Assembly (NCBI RefSeq): GCF_028728065.1
Contig: NZ_CP117812.1
Coordinates: forward strand, 2,170,001 to 2,234,000
Direction of reading: 5' to 3'
DNA: 64,000 nucleotides
Source of the DNA: Lentisphaera profundi
GTDB lineage: Bacteria; Verrucomicrobiota; Lentisphaeria; Lentisphaerales; Lentisphaeraceae
A model generated the notes under the pieces. It saw only the letters and a list, made by a program, of their open reading frames with translations. It did no database searches and was not told the origin of the DNA. Below are positions 2,701-60,508 of this stretch, piece by piece. The position numbers and the translations under genes were made by a program. The number at the start of each line of letters is the position of its first letter. Within the stretch, counting starts at the first letter, position 1.

Positions 2701-4128
2701 TTAGTAGCGGTAATGCTCAGGCTTGTAAGGACCATCAACTGGAACACTGATGTAGTCAGCTTGTTCCTGGCTGAGTGTCGTGAGCTTAGCTCCGAGCTTG
2801 CCGAGGTGAAGTCGTGCTACTTCTTCGTCCAGCTCTTTGCTAAGGCGGAAAACACCAACTTTACGGTCAGCATTTTTAGCGATATCAATTTGAGCAATCG
2901 TTTGATTTGTGAAGCTGTTAGACATCACGAAACTTGGGTGACCCGTAGCGCAACCGAGGTTGATTAAACGGCCAGCTGCCAAGAGGTAGATGCTATTGCC
3001 ATTAGGGAAAGTATAACGATCTACTGGACCACCTGGAATATCATCAGTCTTGATAGATGTTTTAGTAACGCCAGGCATTGCTTCGAGTTCGGCAATCTGA
3101 ATTTCGTTATCAAAGTGACCTATATTACAAACGATCGCTTGATCTTTCATTTGGCTCATATGCTTAGCCGTGATAATGTCTTTGTTACCCGTAGTCGTAA
3201 CGTAGATATCTGCAACTGGAAGCGCGTCTTCTACTGTTGTTACTTGGTAACCAGTCATACAAGCCTGGAGAGCACAGATTGGATCAACTTCAGAAACAAG
3301 AACACGTGCGCGTTCGTTTACGAGTGATTCAGCAGAACCTTTACCAACATCACCGAAACCACAAACCATGGCAACTTTACCTGAGATGAGAACATCCATT
3401 GCGCGTTTGATACCATCACAAAGTGAGTGACGGCAGCCATACACGTTATCGAATTTAGATTTCGTTACTGAATCATTTACGTTGATCGCTTGGAAAAGAA
3501 GCTCCCCTTTTTCTTCCATCTGAATAAGACGGTGAACGCCCGTAGTTGTTTCTTCTGAAACACCAACGATTTTTGGAGCAATCTTTGTCCAGTGACCAGG
3601 ATGTGAAACAAGTACACGCTTGATAAGGTCGAACACAACTTGCTCTTCTTCGCTACTGGCAGGACCTTCAAGGAAGTCAGTATCACCACTTTCCGCTCTT
3701 ACACCAAGGTGAATAAGCATTGTTGCATCTCCACCGTCATCAACGATCTGATCAGGACCAGAACCATCATTCCAAGTCAATGCTTTGAAAGTACAGTCCC
3801 AGTATTCTTCTAAAGTTTCGCCTTTCCAAGCAAAAACAGGCACGCCAGTGACTGCAATTGCCGCAGCTGCGTGATCCTGAGTTGAGAAAATGTTACATGA
3901 ACACCAACGAACATCTGCACCAAGTGAAGTAAGTGTTTCAATAAGTACTGCAGTCTGAATTGTCATGTGGAGTGAACCCATGATCTTAAGACCAGCTAGA
4001 GGTTGTTCTTTACCATACTTCTCACGTGTAGCCATAAGACCTGGCATCTCGTGCTCAGCGATATCAAGTTCTTTACGACCGAATTCTGCGAGCGAGATAT
4101 CCGCTACTTTATAATCTTCATTTGACAT
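2701..4128 (-). CDS. ahcY: Adenosylhomocysteinase (S-adenosylhomocysteine hydrolase)
   Basis: Hydrolyses S-adenosylhomocysteine to homocysteine and adenosine, removing the product inhibitor of methyltransferases. The 475-residue protein has the NAD-binding Rossmann motif around 250-270 ([17 protein letters not shown]), the family signatures [10 protein letters not shown] and [18 protein letters not shown], and the conserved C-terminal ending PYKPEHYRY. Length fits the bacterial form with its internal insertion. It is the last gene of a leftward operon after metK and an adenosine kinase-like gene, so three successive steps of SAM turnover are made together. A 61-base gap separates it from the kinase, and a strong terminator follows. 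Confidence 0.97.
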
Positions 4129-4189: not shown

Positions 4190-5173
4190 TTATTTCTTTA
4201 AATCTACTAATGTTTGATTGATGCGGTCCCATCCTGCTTCAGGAATGACTGCACCCATAACCTGCACAACTTCCGAACCAATTTTGTGGGCCAACTTAGT
4301 ACTTTCTTCAAGACTCAAGTCATGCGCTAAGCCATAGAGGAAGCCACTTGCCCAAAGATCGCCTGCGCCAGTCGTATCTATAGCTTCAACTTTGTGAGCA
4401 CCAACGAAGACTTTTTCGCCATCGCGTTGTACCCAAGCACCATCCGCACCGAGCTTTACGGCGACAATTGAACAATGTTTTGCCAAGCTCTCGATTGCCG
4501 CATGGGGATCATCACTACCGCAAAATGCTTTCGCCTCTTCTTCGTTAGCAAAAACCATATCAACATAATTCTCGAGAAGCTCTGGAAGCACGTCTTGATT
4601 AGCGTTTACCACTTCAAAAGAAGCCAAATCAACACTCACGGTACAACCTGCTTCTTTTGCTGCTTTGAAAGTTTTGAGAGCTAAATCGCGATTGAAGAGC
4701 AAATAACCCTCTAAATGCACGTGGTCTTGCCCTTTAAAATCTTCTGCCGTAACTTCTTCAACGAGAAGACCCGCCGCCGCTCCGAGATAAGGACGCATAG
4801 TTCTCTCTGCATCTGGAGTCACAAGACTGAGACATGTTCCTGTAGGAGTTTCTGGACAACGCTTGAATGCGTGATCCGAACCTCCTGCCTTAACAAAGGA
4901 ATCTAAGAAATATTGCCCGCGTTCATCGCTACCAATTTTTCCGAGAAAAGCACCTGATACACCTAGGTTTAATAAACCAACAATCGTATTCGAAGCCGAA
5001 CCGCCCGTAGCGAGCTCCTGTTCCGGTACATTGGCCAGCAAGTTTTGAAGCTGATCAAACTCAACCATGCACATACCGCCTTTATCACCTTCAATATTAT
5101 CTACGTGCTCATGTGAAACACGTGCCAAAATATCAACGAGAGGCGAACCAACGCCCATGATTTTTTTAGACAT
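4190..5173 (-). CDS. PfkB-family kinase, probable adenosine kinase
   Basis: 327-residue ribokinase/PfkB-family sugar kinase. It has the substrate-side signature GGSASNTIVGLLNLG (about 58-72) and the ATP/anion-hole signature DTTGAGDLWASGFLYGL near residue 268, with the catalytic aspartate in DTTGAGD. The family phosphorylates sugars or nucleosides. Because it lies between metK and ahcY in one operon, its likely substrate is adenosine released by AhcY, giving AMP. That is an inference from context; ribokinase or fructokinase activity cannot be excluded from sequence. The start is 2 bases after the metK stop codon. Confidence 0.85.
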   Translation of the reverse strand: MSKKIMGVGSPLVDILARVSHEHVDNIEGDKGGMCMVEFDQLQNLLANVPEQELATGGSASNTIVGLLNLGVSGAFLGKIGSDERGQYFLDSFVKAGGSDHAFKRCPETPTGTCLSLVTPDAERTMRPYLGAAAGLLVEEVTAEDFKGQDHVHLEGYLLFNRDLALKTFKAAKEAGCTVSVDLASFEVVNANQDVLPELLENYVDMVFANEEEAKAFCGSDDPHAAIESLAKHCSIVAVKLGADGAWVQRDGEKVFVGAHKVEAIDTTGAGDLWASGFLYGLAHDLSLEESTKLAHKIGSEVVQVMGAVIPEAGWDRINQTLVDLKK

Positions 5174-5175
5174 GA

Positions 5176-6360
5176 TTAAGCGATACCAGCTGCAGCTTTG
5201 AGTGCTTCAACTTTGTTAGTTTGCTCCCAAGGGAAAATTTCACGACCGAAGTGACCATAAGCAGCGGACTGCTGGTACTTCCAGCCTTTAGGAGTTTTGA
5301 GACCGAGTTCTGCGATAAGATCAGCTGGCTTCATTGAGAAAACTTCATTAACGATCGCTTCGAGTTGAGTATCATCATCGAGCTTACCTGTACCATAAGT
5401 ATCAACATTCACTGAGATTGGGTAAGGAACGCCAATAGCGTAAGCTACTTGAATTTCACACTTATCTGCAAGACCAGAAGCCACAATATTCTTGGCTACA
5501 TAACGGCTATAGTAAGCAGCTGAACGGTCAACTTTTGAAGGGTCTTTACCTGAGAACGCACCGCCACCATGTGAGCCAACGCCACCATAAGTATCCACGA
5601 TGATTTTACGGCCAGTAAGACCAGCATCACCATGAGGTCCACCAATGATGAATTTTCCTGTCGGGTTGATGTGATAAGTAATTTCTTCTTTGAGGAGTTC
5701 TGCAGGAATAACTTCAGCCACAACTTCGCGAACTACTTTTTGGAGCTGAGCAATATCCATCTCAGCAGTATGCTGATGAGATACGACGATTGCTGTTACC
5801 GCAACTGGCTTGCCGAGTTCGTAACGAATAGAAACTTGACTCTTTGAATCGGGAAGCAAGAACTTGTACGCAGAATCATTCTTGCGAAGATCCGCTAAAC
5901 GCTCAAGAATTTTATGCGAGTAATAAACCGGGGCTGGCATTAGAGCTTCGGTTTCGTTTGAAGCATAACCAAACATCATGCCTTGATCGCCTGCTCCTTG
6001 CTCAGTATGTAGACCCGCGCCTTCATCTACGCCCTGTGCGATATCCGCTGATTGTTCGTGGAGGCGAACTTGAACTTCACAAGTATCAGCGTTAAAGCCG
6101 ATACCATTGCAAGTATAACCGATTTCGCGAATTGCCTGACGCGCTACCGCTTCGTAGTCCACATTAGAATTAGTAGTGATCTCACCAGCAACAACAACGA
6201 GGTCCGTTGTCACTAAAGTTTCGCACGCAACGCGGCTATTAGAATCGCCTGCAAGACATGCGTCAAGGATTGCGTCTGATACTTGATCAGAAATTTTATC
6301 GGGGTGACCTTCAGAAACTGACTCCGAAGTGAAAATGTGTGTGGCGTGAATTTTACTCAT
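5176..6360 (-). CDS. metK: S-adenosylmethionine synthase
   Basis: Makes S-adenosylmethionine from methionine and ATP. The 394-residue protein shows the N-terminal [16 protein letters not shown] motif (about 18-33), the [12 protein letters not shown] hexapeptide-region signature, and the glycine-rich P-loop-like [19 protein letters not shown]. Length and motif order are normal. First gene of the metK-adenosine kinase-ahcY operon. The leader holds a promoter-like TTGAAA-N16-TATATT whose -10 overlaps an inverted repeat also found upstream of the MetF-like gene at 59741. No SAM or SAH riboswitch was recognised in the 117-base leader. Confidence 0.98.
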
Positions 6361-6378
6361 TTAAATATTCCATATTTA

Positions 6379-6400
6379 TATATTTGCATAAACGAATATA
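6379..6400 (-). promoter_or_regulatory. metK operator candidate overlapping the -10 box
   Basis: On the minus strand the sequence is TATATTCG-TTTATG-CAAATATA, an inverted repeat with one mismatch and a 6-bp spacer. A -35-like TTGAAA lies at 6422-6417, 16 bases before TATATT (6400-6395), so the repeat covers the -10 and start region, where a repressor would act. The same half-site and spacer occur upstream of the metF-like gene. Confidence 0.5.
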
Positions 6401-6477
6401 TGTAAAATACAGAACTTTTCAAACGAGTTTAATAAAACTTAAAGATTTTCTTTTCGGCGCTTCATAATTCGCCTTAT

Positions 6478-38943: not shown

Positions 38944-40406
38944 ATGACTCAAGATGACGAACAGTTAAATATTAATTTTAACGAAAGCAACCCCTTCCAA
39001 GATGCACTTGCTGGCGGAAAATTCTCAGTGATTATCGAACTTGCCCCTCCTCTAGAAGGAGAAGGCGATAGCGACAACATGTTTACACTAGAAAAAATTG
39101 CCGAAGAATGCTCGCGACACCAAGAAATTGTCGGGGTTTCAGTGAGCGATCGCACGGATGGCCCCACACATATGTCGTCTTCGAAATTAGCTGAACGTCT
39201 AAGTCGTATTTCCAATAAACCTGCCATCTCCCACATCAGTGGACAGGGACATGACCAAGCCAGCTTTGAAGAAGAAGTTGCCAGTGCAAGCTCCGCGGGA
39301 ATCAACAACCTTTTACTCCTTAGTGGCACCTTAAAAGAAGGCGAAGATAAGTACTTCGAAAGTACAGAACAACTTAGATCCTGTTCGGCCAAATGGGCTA
39401 AAATCAATACTGGCGCCGCAGTCAATCCCTTTAAATACTCTGTAAATAGTAGCTTTGCTCAATACCTTAAAATGATCCAAAAAATCAACTCTGGCGCAAA
39501 ATTCATCACCACTCAAGCAGGCTTGGATATGAGAAAATATGATGAGGTGCTCCGCTTTTGTACTCATCGCGAAATTACCGTGCCTCTTATTGCGCGCCTT
39601 TCACTCATCTCCCACGACTGTCTACCCATGATTACCAATCTCCAAATGGAGCCTGGCGTCCCCCTCTCTCGTGAAATATCCTCTTTGATCCTACGTGAGC
39701 TCAACGAGGCCCAAGACCATTCTTCCTTTATGAATATACAGTTGCGCCGACTCTGTCTACAAATTAATGCCTGCGCACTCATGGGTTATAGTGGTGTACA
39801 AATCAAAGGTATTAAAAACGCGGTTGAACTCCATCAAGTCATGATTCGGATGAGAACTTGCATGGAAGAAATCATCAGCCTCGAACAATTTTACCAAGAA
39901 TGGGATACACTCAATCAATCCGTCTCATTCTCCCCGGGAAGTAGCATCCTCCAATCATTGCCGAACCAAGATATCAAGAGCTCCAATGTCGCTCAAACTG
40001 GCACTTATTATATTTATAAGAAATCAGAAATGCGTCCCGTCGATGAATCCTTATCGAGTGATAATACTGATGACTTAATCTACGCTGAATTTAATCACCC
40101 CTCAGAATTTGAAGTGTTTCGTACTAAACTCGCGAAAAAACTCAATCTTGATGAAAAAGACGGCTCTATTGCCCGCCTTCTCAAAAAAACCTTAACCGGT
40201 GTTTCTGGTAATGGCCCTGCAGACTTAGTAAAAACTCAATTTACTGATTTGAGTACTTGCCCAAAAAACTTATCCATGGCAGCTGTGGCGGTAGCACAAG
40301 TACCGACCTTTGCGAAGATGGCAAAAGCAATTGCATTCATCTCGAGCGCATTGGCATGGCCGCATCTCTAAATCAGCTTGATCTCCTGGAGCATCCAAGT
40401 GACTGA
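38944..40406 (+). CDS. Methylenetetrahydrofolate reductase-like protein with MTHFR_C domain, requiring a -1 frameshift
   Basis: The N-terminal 300 residues are a MetF-type barrel (FSVIIELAPPLEGEGDSDNM, VSVSDRTDGPTHMSS, INNLLLLSG, FITTQAGLDM). The rest is an MTHFR_C-type domain. In the starting frame the protein runs to a TAA at 40371 (475 residues), and after CPKN becomes unrelated Ala-rich sequence. Slipping back one base at A AAA AAC (40263-40269) joins CPKN to LIHGSCGGSTSTDLCEDG and then KSNCIHLERI, which matches the family pattern CPKNxxNGPCGGSxxGxCE...C.W, and ends at TGA 40406 (487 residues). The new stop overlaps the thiL start, as expected of the intact gene. It is either a programmed shift, a mutation or a sequencing error in A6. 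The family reduces folate C1 units or acts in corrinoid methyl transfer. Confidence 0.82.
40263..40308 (+). promoter_or_regulatory. slippery heptamer A AAA AAC and downstream hairpin
   Basis: The heptamer lies in the proper phase for -1 slippage (codons CCA AAA AAC). A hairpin GGCGGTA (40287-40293) / TACCG-A-CC (40301-40308) starts 17 bases later, further than the 5-9 usual for stimulators. The heptamer is seen directly; its use is inferred. Confidence 0.4.
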
Positions 40407-58410: not shown

Positions 58411-59277
58411 ATGTCCCGTTCGAAATTGCTTGCTAAGCGAGAAGAGAAGCTCCTAAAAATACGCCAGCAACTCATTACTAGCTTCACTTGGCTACTTTGC
58501 CTAGCTATGGTACTGGGGACTCTTCTATTATTAGTTTCTGGTATGCGCTTACTTTTATTAAGTTCAAACCCCCAGTTCACTCTACAAAACATTGAGATAA
58601 AAGGCAATACCCACATCACTCCAGATGAAATTATCTATGCTCAACTTGCAGAGATGGAAGTATTGGAAAACAAAATCAATATCTTCCAAGTATCGCCTTC
58701 AAAACTTCGTGAAAAACTCGAACAAAACCCTGCTATACAAGAAGTTCTCATTGAAAGAGTTTTACCCAATACGCTCTCTATTTCAATCACGGAAAAACAA
58801 GCCCGTGCACAATTTGTCGTAGATGGCAAAGTATATCTTGTGAGCAGTGACTCCACACTGCTACCTTATGGTGATAATCAGCAAGCTTACCTGCCACTCA
58901 TCGCTATTAAAGTGGATGGGAAACTTGAGCTCGGTAAAAAAATCAATACTGAAGATAACCAAGCCGTTTTTGATTTCTTAAGCTATTACGATAGCTACGC
59001 CATCAGGCGCAATGGTGAAACTTTCTTCCCTTCTCAAATTTTTAAAGTCGCACGCGTAAGACAAGATCCAAAAGGTGACCTCGTTCTTTTTCTTAAACAA
59101 TCGGGAATTAGTGATGATTTTAAAATCGCTCGCCATAATGTCCTGCTCAAATTGGATAGCTCTGAACTTGCCTTAAGCCTGGAAAGAGCTTGTACTTTTT
59201 TGATCGAAAACCGTCTCGCTGGTAAACCCATAAATAAATATATTGATGCTCGATCTCACAGGGTATTTGTCGAATGA
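58411..59277 (+). CDS. ftsQ: Cell division protein FtsQ-like (POTRA)
   Basis: 288 residues: a basic N-terminus, membrane helix (about 20-43), POTRA domain (about 50-125; FTLQNIEIKGNTHITPDEII, LREKLEQNPAIQEVLIERVLPNTLSISITEKQARA) and the beta FtsQ domain. FtsQ bridges early and late divisome proteins. The ATG at 58411 has AAGG at good distance, while an earlier TTG has none. Unusually it is not in a mur-fts cluster but is coupled (ATGA overlap) to a Fur-family gene. Confidence 0.83.
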   Translation: MSRSKLLAKREEKLLKIRQQLITSFTWLLCLAMVLGTLLLLVSGMRLLLLSSNPQFTLQNIEIKGNTHITPDEIIYAQLAEMEVLENKINIFQVSPSKLREKLEQNPAIQEVLIERVLPNTLSISITEKQARAQFVVDGKVYLVSSDSTLLPYGDNQQAYLPLIAIKVDGKLELGKKINTEDNQAVFDFLSYYDSYAIRRNGETFFPSQIFKVARVRQDPKGDLVLFLKQSGISDDFKIARHNVLLKLDSSELALSLERACTFLIENRLAGKPINKYIDARSHRVFVE

Positions 59278-59672
59278 AAAATAATCAAATTGGCCTAAGA
59301 AAAACTAAGCAAAGAGAACTGGTTCTCGGTGTCATCTCCTCTGCCCCAGGACCTGTGTCCGTAAACGAAATCGTACTGCTCCTAGAACAATGTAGCCACA
59401 ACATCGGTATCGCTACTATCTACAGAACCGTGAATCTCTTAATGGATAACGAACTCATTCAATGTGTTCGTTTGCAAGATGCCATTCAACGCTATGAACC
59501 AACCAACATCCCTCACCATCACCACTTTCATTGTAAGCAATGTGATAAAGTCTATGACCTAGAAGGATGTTATCTGCACCTTGATAATCCTATCTTAAAA
59601 GAAGGTCACCAAGTCTCATCTCACGAAATTACTTTTAGAGGCATCTGCAAAGACTGCGGAAAAAAAGCCTAA
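59274..59672 (+). CDS. Fur-family transcriptional regulator
   Basis: 132 residues: a winged helix (GPVSVNEIVLLLEQCSHNIGIATIYRTVNLLMDNELIQ) and the metal-binding HHHHFHCKQCDKVYDL with a second CxxC (CKDCG) at the C-terminus, so a structural zinc site is present. Fur, Zur, PerR and Mur cannot be told apart from this. It lies between ftsQ, with which it overlaps, and the MetF-like gene 69 bases further on. Confidence 0.93.
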   Translation: MKNNQIGLRKTKQRELVLGVISSAPGPVSVNEIVLLLEQCSHNIGIATIYRTVNLLMDNELIQCVRLQDAIQRYEPTNIPHHHHFHCKQCDKVYDLEGCYLHLDNPILKEGHQVSSHEITFRGICKDCGKKA

Positions 59673-59702
59673 GTTCACTTGAATAACTTAAAAGTGATTA
59701 CA

Positions 59703-59721
59703 ATATTCGTATATTCGAATA
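59703..59721 (+). promoter_or_regulatory. operator candidate of the metF-like gene
   Basis: ATATTCG-TATATT-CGAATA, an inverted repeat (TATTCG/CGAATA) with the same 6-bp spacer as the one upstream of metK. A -35-like TTGAAT (59679-59684) and -10-like AATATT (59702-59707) put it over the -10 region. Confidence 0.5.
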
Positions 59722-59740
59722 AACAGATATAAAGAAGCTA

Positions 59741-60508
59741 ATGACTAAAATTTCTATTGAACTTGTTCCCCATGCCGCCGAAGAAATCACTTCGGAACTC
59801 TCTGGTATACAAGCAGCCTTTCCTAAAGTAAACACTGTAAATATCCCTGATATTGTGCGCCTTCCAACTCGAAGCTGGGAAGCCTGTGGCTACTGCGCTC
59901 CTATGCTTGAACGCGATATACCGCACTTACGCGCCTGTGACTTCGACCTCAATCAGCCACAGCTCATAAGCGATATCATGGAGAAATACAATTTTTCTGA
60001 AGTCCTACTGGTAGGTGGCGACATCTTTGAAGGACGTGAACATTTTGAGACTACAACAACCGATTTTATTAAATTTTTCAAAGAGCATTATAAGACGGTT
60101 AAAGTCTATGGCGCTATTGATCCCTATAGATCAGACTTTGAAAGTGAAATGAGTTATGTCCACGAGAAGATTGACGCGGGTATCGATGGCTTCTTCACAC
60201 AACCATTCTTTGATCTCGGCCTCTTAAGCAAGTGGATCAAGGCTCTAAAAGATCACACTGTGTATTGGGGCTTAAGTCCTGTCCTAAGTGAAAAGAGTCA
60301 AGCTTATTGGGAAAAGCGCAACCTCGTGAATTTCCCCAAAAACTTTGAACCTAATCTCGAATGGAATGCTCAATTTGCCGCCGATGCCATACAAATAATT
60401 GATCAATTCAATTCATGCCTCTACTTCATGCCTATTCGCATTCCTGTAGTCGATTACCTCAATGCGATTATACCTAAGAGCAAGATTTTAAAAGATCTCT
60501 TAAGCTAA
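59741..60508 (+). CDS. MetF-like methylenetetrahydrofolate reductase family protein, short form
   Basis: 255 residues, beginning KISIELVPHAAEEITSELSGIQ and KVNTVNIPDIVRLPTRSWEA, the pattern of the short MetF branch. LLVGGDIFEGREHF and GIDGFFTQPFFDLGLLSKWI follow as barrel strands. It probably reduces methylenetetrahydrofolate for methionine synthesis, though the branch is less well studied. It does not have the MTHFR_C part found in the larger relative at 38944. Its promoter region carries the operator also seen at metK. Confidence 0.82.
   Translation: MTKISIELVPHAAEEITSELSGIQAAFPKVNTVNIPDIVRLPTRSWEACGYCAPMLERDIPHLRACDFDLNQPQLISDIMEKYNFSEVLLVGGDIFEGREHFETTTTDFIKFFKEHYKTVKVYGAIDPYRSDFESEMSYVHEKIDAGIDGFFTQPFFDLGLLSKWIKALKDHTVYWGLSPVLSEKSQAYWEKRNLVNFPKNFEPNLEWNAQFAADAIQIIDQFNSCLYFMPIRIPVVDYLNAIIPKSKILKDLLS

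Follow-up and report, generated by a model that had tools for sequence, protein, structure and literature searches.

The window analysed here, a stretch of 64,000 nucleotides from Lentisphaera profundi, contains on its minus strand an operon headed by metK (5176..6360), which encodes an S-adenosylmethionine (SAM) synthetase (TIGR01034, 543 bits). It is followed by a gene for a PfkB-family (adenosine/ribokinase-like) kinase (4190..5173, minus strand; PF00294) and by ahcY (2701..4128, minus strand; PF05221, 480 bits), encoding S-adenosylhomocysteine (SAH) hydrolase, and this gene order, metK-pfkB-ahcY, is kept in relatives. The metK promoter reads TTGAAA-N16-TATATTCG-TTTATG-CAAATATA on the minus strand (6422..6379), with a predicted -35 box, TTGAAA, at 6417..6422 and a predicted -10 box, TATATT, at 6395-6400. 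TTGAAA or TTTACA is found at the matching -35 place in the genomes G001 (L. marina), G002, G004 and G005. A predicted SahR-type operator of 20 bp, ATATTCGTTTATGCAAATAT on the minus strand (6380..6399), overlaps the -10 box, and a second, weaker copy of the palindrome (6372..6391, minus strand; score 14.0) overlaps it with a shift of 8 bp.

On the plus strand, a metF-like gene (59741..60508) encodes a divergent protein of 255 aa from the methylenetetrahydrofolate reductase (MTHFR) family (PF02219, 37 bits), which scored far under the TIGR00676 cut-off and matched solved MTHFRs weakly. Directly upstream lies the gene of a Fur-family protein (59274-59672). The metF-like promoter (59679-59728) has the form TTGAAT-N17-AATATTCG-TATATT-CGAATAAACAGAT, its tail being also given as CGAATAAA; the predicted -35 box, TTGAAT, occupies 59679..59684 and the predicted -10 box, AATATT, 59702-59707, both on the plus strand. 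The predicted SahR-type operator at this promoter, the 20-bp sequence ATATTCGTATATTCGAATAA (59703..59722, plus strand), is the best site of the whole genome under a model that contains no sites of the genus, and a second copy, ATATTCGAATAAACAGATAT (59711..59730, plus strand), overlaps it with the same 8-bp shift.

Both promoters thus share a 20-bp near-palindrome, similar to ATATTCG-N6-CGAATAT, which covers the predicted -10 box. A sequence-only reading of this DNA had proposed a common operator at the two genes, and its description of the sequences was accurate, as was its placing of the operator over the -10 box; the operator begins 39 bp upstream of the metK ATG and 38 bp upstream of that of the metF-like gene. 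The claimed layout of ATATTCG with an inverted partner after 6 bases also holds, with one mismatch in each partner half-site relative to a perfect inverted repeat. The bare pattern recommended for a genome scan, TATTCG-N6-CGAATA, proved to be of no use. With up to two mismatches it occurred at 271 places in the L. profundi genome (G000; 5.46 Mb, two contigs) versus 357 for the reversed control, and its six occurrences in the window, versus 2.8 expected, are not informative. As it gave no discrimination, full-length models were used instead, the informative motif being 20-26 bp long, and with these the distribution is non-random. When a matrix was built from four metK sites, none of them from the genus, 59703 (21.8), 6380 (19.9) and 59711 (17.2) came out at the top of the window, the next score being 10.7.

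The same specificity was seen genome-wide. One model, R1, contained the window's own sites, so that its ranking of them was circular; a sequence-only model, R2, was therefore built without genus sites, from seven sites all lying outside Lentisphaera. The three best R2 matches in the whole genome were those before the metF-like gene (E 0.00175), metK (0.027) and metH (0.037), and these were the only sites with E below 1, the fourth match having E 1.96. Among seven genomes of the class that lack the regulator described below, the best R2 match had E 0.10-1.34 in five, and two gave none. On the basis of the three best sites we define the regulon of L. profundi as metK-pfkB-ahcY, metH and the metF-like gene, the metH site lying 55 bp before a MetH of 1204 aa (L264:3923-7537). 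The shared sequence might also be no more than an extended -10 promoter element rich in A+T, or have arisen by chance, as the palindrome is AT-rich, overlaps the -10 box and, in its bare form, is no commoner than the reversed control. We consider this very improbable, given that a model trained elsewhere picks three methyl-cycle promoters from the genome, that no comparable site precedes metK in the 75 scored genomes that lack the regulator, and that the positives include a genome whose metK upstream region has only 31% A+T.

Two other candidate sites were rejected. The fourth R1 site in L. profundi (G000 C1:1182380, L265:4381; E 0.67) lies inside a frame of 709 aa and is absent among R2 matches up to E 10; it is taken as a chance match or as a site of unassigned role. 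A weak operator-like site within this 709-714-aa frame occurs in both G000 and G001 (C1:2546791, L275:3792), with E of about 0.7 under R1. The other rejected site, G023:C489:909 (E 0.18), is likewise within a reading frame.

SAM and SAH riboswitches are common at SAM-cycle genes of other bacteria, according to PMC4239095, and such an element could be imagined to control metK and the metF-like gene. Its likelihood is close to nil: in the window no Rfam family reached its gathering score, there was no relevant match around metK, and the operators end 18-19 bp before the start codon, which leaves little room for a leader.

The metK operator is strong in five of the six genomes of the family and weak in G003. 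The metF-like operator is kept in all three genomes of the genus, with a weaker copy in G002, and was seen in none of the three other genomes of the family. The conservation in relatives that the first reading called for is thus found throughout the family for metK and only within the genus for the metF-like gene. Its idea of a repressor-type regulon for methionine and SAM gained further members: besides metH of L. profundi, the operator stands before metH in G001, G002, G004, G005 and G023, before metE in G003 and G005, and before a canonical metF in G023. The metH operator of G001 consists of two overlapping copies.

The metH genes themselves differ. Methionine synthase is split in L. marina (G001, L316:2949-6703; 350 + 896 aa), where the operator precedes the split gene, and in G005 (L268 / L306). 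The single 1204-aa MetH of L. profundi has a divergent activation domain, with a Met_synt_B12 score of 68-71 bits versus 430 in G001, and two kinds of MetH therefore exist inside the genus Lentisphaera.

A search for ArsR-type helix-turn-helix (HTH) proteins in the genomes of the family, G023 and G024 found one protein common to all, in frames of 309-375 aa; further proteins with an ArsR-type HTH are also encoded in L. profundi. The gene of this candidate regulator lies outside the window (G000:C2:2350577-2351518, L087:8578-9519) and encodes 313 aa, with an ArsR winged helix at the N-terminus (PF01022, 50.6 bits) and the fold of a class I methyltransferase at the C-terminus (Methyltransf_31, 61.7 bits). 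The methyltransferase motif DLGxGTG is conserved, which supports the presence of a SAM/SAH pocket. The AlphaFold structure of its orthologue in L. marina (L105:6001-6939; pLDDT 90.9) contains both the HTH and the methyltransferase elements. A fold search adds little: its matches were either single methyltransferases or winged-helix ones, of which Rv2258c with SAH ranked best (TM about 0.5). A gene of the KamA family (lysine-2,3-aminomutase-like) of radical SAM proteins (L087:7545-8570) lies 7 bp ahead of the regulator gene, a spacing that suggests co-transcription.

With an alignment of eight orthologues as query, the ArsR-methyltransferase was detected in 12 of the 197 genomes of the class. 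For 87 genomes, the 150 bp ahead of metK were scored with a matrix made from seven sites of G000, G001, G002, G004 and G005. Those 87 comprise the 12 regulator genomes and 75 controls, taken from the 176 genomes with metK and without the regulator (metK was found at threshold in 188 of the 197); G011, G026, G034 and G038, all lacking the regulator, were dropped before this count as their metK match starts inside the gene. The regulator genomes occupied ranks 1 to 12 (24.5 down to 12.6), and the best control reached 10.1. The matrix included no site from seven of the 12 positives. By a naive estimate, such a separation has a probability of 2.6e-10, a value that ignores the shared ancestry of the 12 genomes, which belong to five families. 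In four of the positives (G003, G024, G050, G071) the metK site is weak and diverged (12.6-15.5). When the matrix was made from three sites found in other phyla, all 12 positives were still among the 17 best of the 87 (p of about 6e-8), and a matrix of ATATCAA-type sites gave no separation, ranking them from 2 to 54 of 87. A different palindrome, ATCCGCTAATGCGGAT, of the ATC-N10-GAT form, occurs within 150 bp upstream of metK in G020 (L044), an 84% complete genome in which no ArsR-methyltransferase was found.

Could the palindrome be bound by some other factor, such as the Fur-family protein or another ArsR protein, with the ArsR-methyltransferase merely co-occurring? The Fur-family gene adjoins the metF-like operator, and local regulators often act on their neighbours. 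Moreover, the ArsR-methyltransferase gene is unlinked to all of its presumed targets in Lentisphaerota: neighbours encoding AhcY, MetK, MetH, MetF or MetE were seen at none of 11 loci (L105-L112, L281-L283), several of which are short contigs. However, a Fur neighbour leaves the sites at metK, metH, metE and the canonical metF of other genera unexplained, the metK operators that score best are exactly those of the genomes encoding the ArsR-methyltransferase (12 of 12, versus none of the 75 controls above the lowest positive), and its homologues in other phyla adjoin ahcY, metH or metF behind palindromes of the same frame. We therefore find another factor unlikely, and the ArsR-methyltransferase is the protein that we assign to these sites.

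The overlapping copies deserve a separate comment. A shift of 8 bp recurs at the metF-like gene, metK, metH of G001 and metF of G023, and the offsets -8 and +24 show an excess of ATAT, with means of 2.8 and 2.2 of 4 letters over 20 sites, the unphased flanks giving 1.4. In Lentisphaerota, the whole of phase 0 (1.66) does not exceed phase 6 (1.74), so that only the nearest boxes are enriched and the 8-bp phasing of ATAT boxes is suggestive only. MetJ is a ribbon-helix-helix protein with boxes of 8 bp, and the phased boxes might be read as met-box-like repeats of a repressor of this type; the first reading had compared the regulon to MetJ or SahR in its logic. The feedback logic of methionine and SAM is indeed common to both and, loosely, so is the 8-bp phase in some operators, but MetJ (PF01340) was detected in none of the 12 operator genomes, with the E. 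coli control positive. This refutes the known MetJ, and a SahR-type palindrome, being of the form ATAT-N4-ATAT-N4-ATAT, would by itself produce an 8-bp phase. A MetJ-type repressor is thus highly improbable, and it is the SahR half of the comparison that stands.

SahR proteins are fusions of an ArsR HTH with a SAM-methyltransferase, as can also be read from an annotated Sinorhizobium meliloti homologue of SahR length. The Lentisphaera regulator has the same architecture. According to PMC4239095, SahR binds a 20-bp palindrome upstream of SAM-cycle genes, has a core regulon of sahR, ahcY, metH, metF and metK, and shares with SamR the consensus ATC-N10-GAT. In Lentisphaerota, the predicted targets are metK, ahcY, metH, metF and metE, and homologues in other phyla stand beside ahcY, metH or metF; the likeness is one of homology and synteny, drawn from genome loci and annotated homologues.

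There are also differences. Most Lentisphaerota sites have ATT-N10-AAT in place of the ATC-N10-GAT given in PMC4239095, with the same length and outer ATAT boxes, and the half-sites are ATATTCG/ATTCC instead of the ATC type. This lowers the case for a canonical SahR operator, not that for the regulon. The first reading did not recognise the motif as that of a known factor, which is correct as regards the altered half-sites; as the operator keeps the 20-bp SahR frame and a gene of the SahR family co-occurs with it, the factor is not of an unknown kind. Furthermore, SahR is autoregulated and linked to its targets in other phyla, whereas the Lentisphaerota gene is unlinked and no operator was seen at it in the loci scanned. 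Its helix reads QPxxSRHLA, unlike QSRxSRHLK of the delta-type homologues, and the phylum falls outside the proteobacterial set presented in PMC4239095. The same paper describes SamR of Xanthomonadales, a SahR-like regulator of a methionine regulon including metK, metF, metE and metH; its motif, however, has 24 bp, and ahcY, which is in an operon controlled here, is not a SamR target.

Computation established the operators and showed that they are specific genome-wide, that they co-occur with the regulator gene, that homologues of this gene are syntenic with ahcY, metH or metF in other phyla, and that the 20-bp frame is shared. In our opinion, the metK and metF-like sites are very probably operators of a SahR-type ArsR-methyltransferase regulator, presumably a repressor that answers to SAH. 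PMC8877191 describes SahR as a repressor of the ArsR family that, in Desulfovibrio, binds in a SAH-dependent manner. By analogy with it we infer physical binding, repression rather than activation, SAH as the effector and the direction of the response. A regulator dimer sitting across the -10 box on its 20-bp palindrome would block RNA polymerase at the promoters of metK-pfkB-ahcY, metH and the metF-like gene. With a rise of SAH (or of the SAH/SAM ratio), SAH would enter the methyltransferase pocket and the regulator would leave the operator; AhcY, MetH, the MTHFR-like enzyme and MetK could then clear SAH, an inhibitory by-product, and regenerate SAM.

Outside the phylum, we listed the best 80 homologue matches, so that counts by phylum are lower bounds. 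Among these, the top-scoring ones are loci of Desulfohalobiaceae/Desulfobacteraceae, and many of those from Desulfovibrionales adjoin ahcY; 20 full-length homologues include 13 adjacent to ahcY and five adjacent to metH. In the protein tree, the branch nearest to Lentisphaerota is that of Krumholzibacteriota, with ahcY adjacent, and the two form one clade (support 87/94). The homologue on S. meliloti pSymB has 1023 bp, the length of E. aridi sahR, and ArsR-metF as annotated neighbours; the annotated orders are ArsR-metF-homocysteine methyltransferase-metH in Novosphingobium and ArsR-ahcY-metH in Leptospira. At least 8 of 10 palindrome pairs were found in 10 of the 24 loci outside Lentisphaerota (L114, L117, L119, L120, L121, L128, L130, L312, L314, L315), and no convincing palindrome at L115, L118, L129, L131, L132 and L313. 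The palindromes include ATATCAAGATATCTTGATAT in Aminicenantes (L119) and Leptospira (L314) and ACATAAAGATATCTTTATGT in Methylobacterium (L315); with the Lentisphaera operators they have the frame ATAT-N4-ATAT-N4-ATAT in common and differ in the inner letters, their half-sites being mostly of the ATATCAA type.

The inner letters vary together with the presumed recognition helix. GQSRxSRHLK/R goes with half-sites of the ATATCAA type, SQPRxSRHLK of alphaproteobacteria with ACATAAA, and QPxxSRHLA/G/S (or SKHLG) of Lentisphaerota and Krumholzibacteriota with ATATTCG or ATTCC. The correlation is exploratory, since the operators of other phyla were chosen as the best palindromes in one frame, and it possibly reflects a single event, as the altered class forms one clade. 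The altered residues, numbered 49 and 56 in L. marina, are within helix 48-60 of the AlphaFold model, which we take as the recognition helix.

We suggest, tentatively and at somewhat less than an even chance, the following joint reading. SahR would be a SAH sensor of many phyla, and the Lentisphaerota/Krumholzibacteriota branch a natural specificity switch, in which the change from QS..SRHLK to QP..SRHLA/G (positions 49 and 56) goes with that from half-site ATATCAAG to ATATTCG/ATTCC in an unchanged 20-bp frame. The 8-bp phased copies would let more than one dimer register per promoter, and the 255-aa metF-like protein would be the working MTHFR of the genus. As this divergent MTHFR shares its operator with MetH, it may supply the latter with methyl groups, which suggests the short protein as the enzyme feeding MetH in Lentisphaera. 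Lentisphaera proper has only divergent proteins of the MTHFR family (255 aa and 475-488 aa), and canonical MetF is present in G023, G024, G049 and G071.

The second kind is represented in the window by a protein of 475 aa whose MTHFR domain is divergent (38944-40371, plus strand; PF02219, 50 bits) and which is encoded among cell-wall and tRNA-modification genes; no operator was found near it. Homologous matches in other genomes of the class are frames of 476-555 aa.

PMC4239095 and PMC8877191 treat SahR in Proteobacteria. Among open-licence papers on regulation in Lentisphaera/Lentisphaerae, none deals by title with the SAM cycle. What we predict is a SahR-type regulon whose operator is altered and whose regulator gene is unlinked, in a phylum outside those that these two papers cover. 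The SAM cycle of this phylum, for which we found no regulator described, can thereby be given one, together with its operator and full regulon, and SahR-type control with a conserved 20-bp geometry is indicated well beyond Proteobacteria. The operator letters and two recognition-helix residues that shift together offer a testable case of repressor/operator co-change.

Two further observations concern other phyla. In Leptospira interrogans (L314:3935-8840), the ArsR-methyltransferase gene, ahcY and metH follow a perfect ATATCAAGATATCTTGATAT palindrome, an apparent SahR-type operon in a spirochaete. At three Planctomycetota loci (L122, L123, L125), the ArsR-methyltransferase gene lies beside metH with two overlapping operators of the ATATCG type, shifted by 8 bp, and the protein has a variant recognition helix, GQSRTSTHLTLL.
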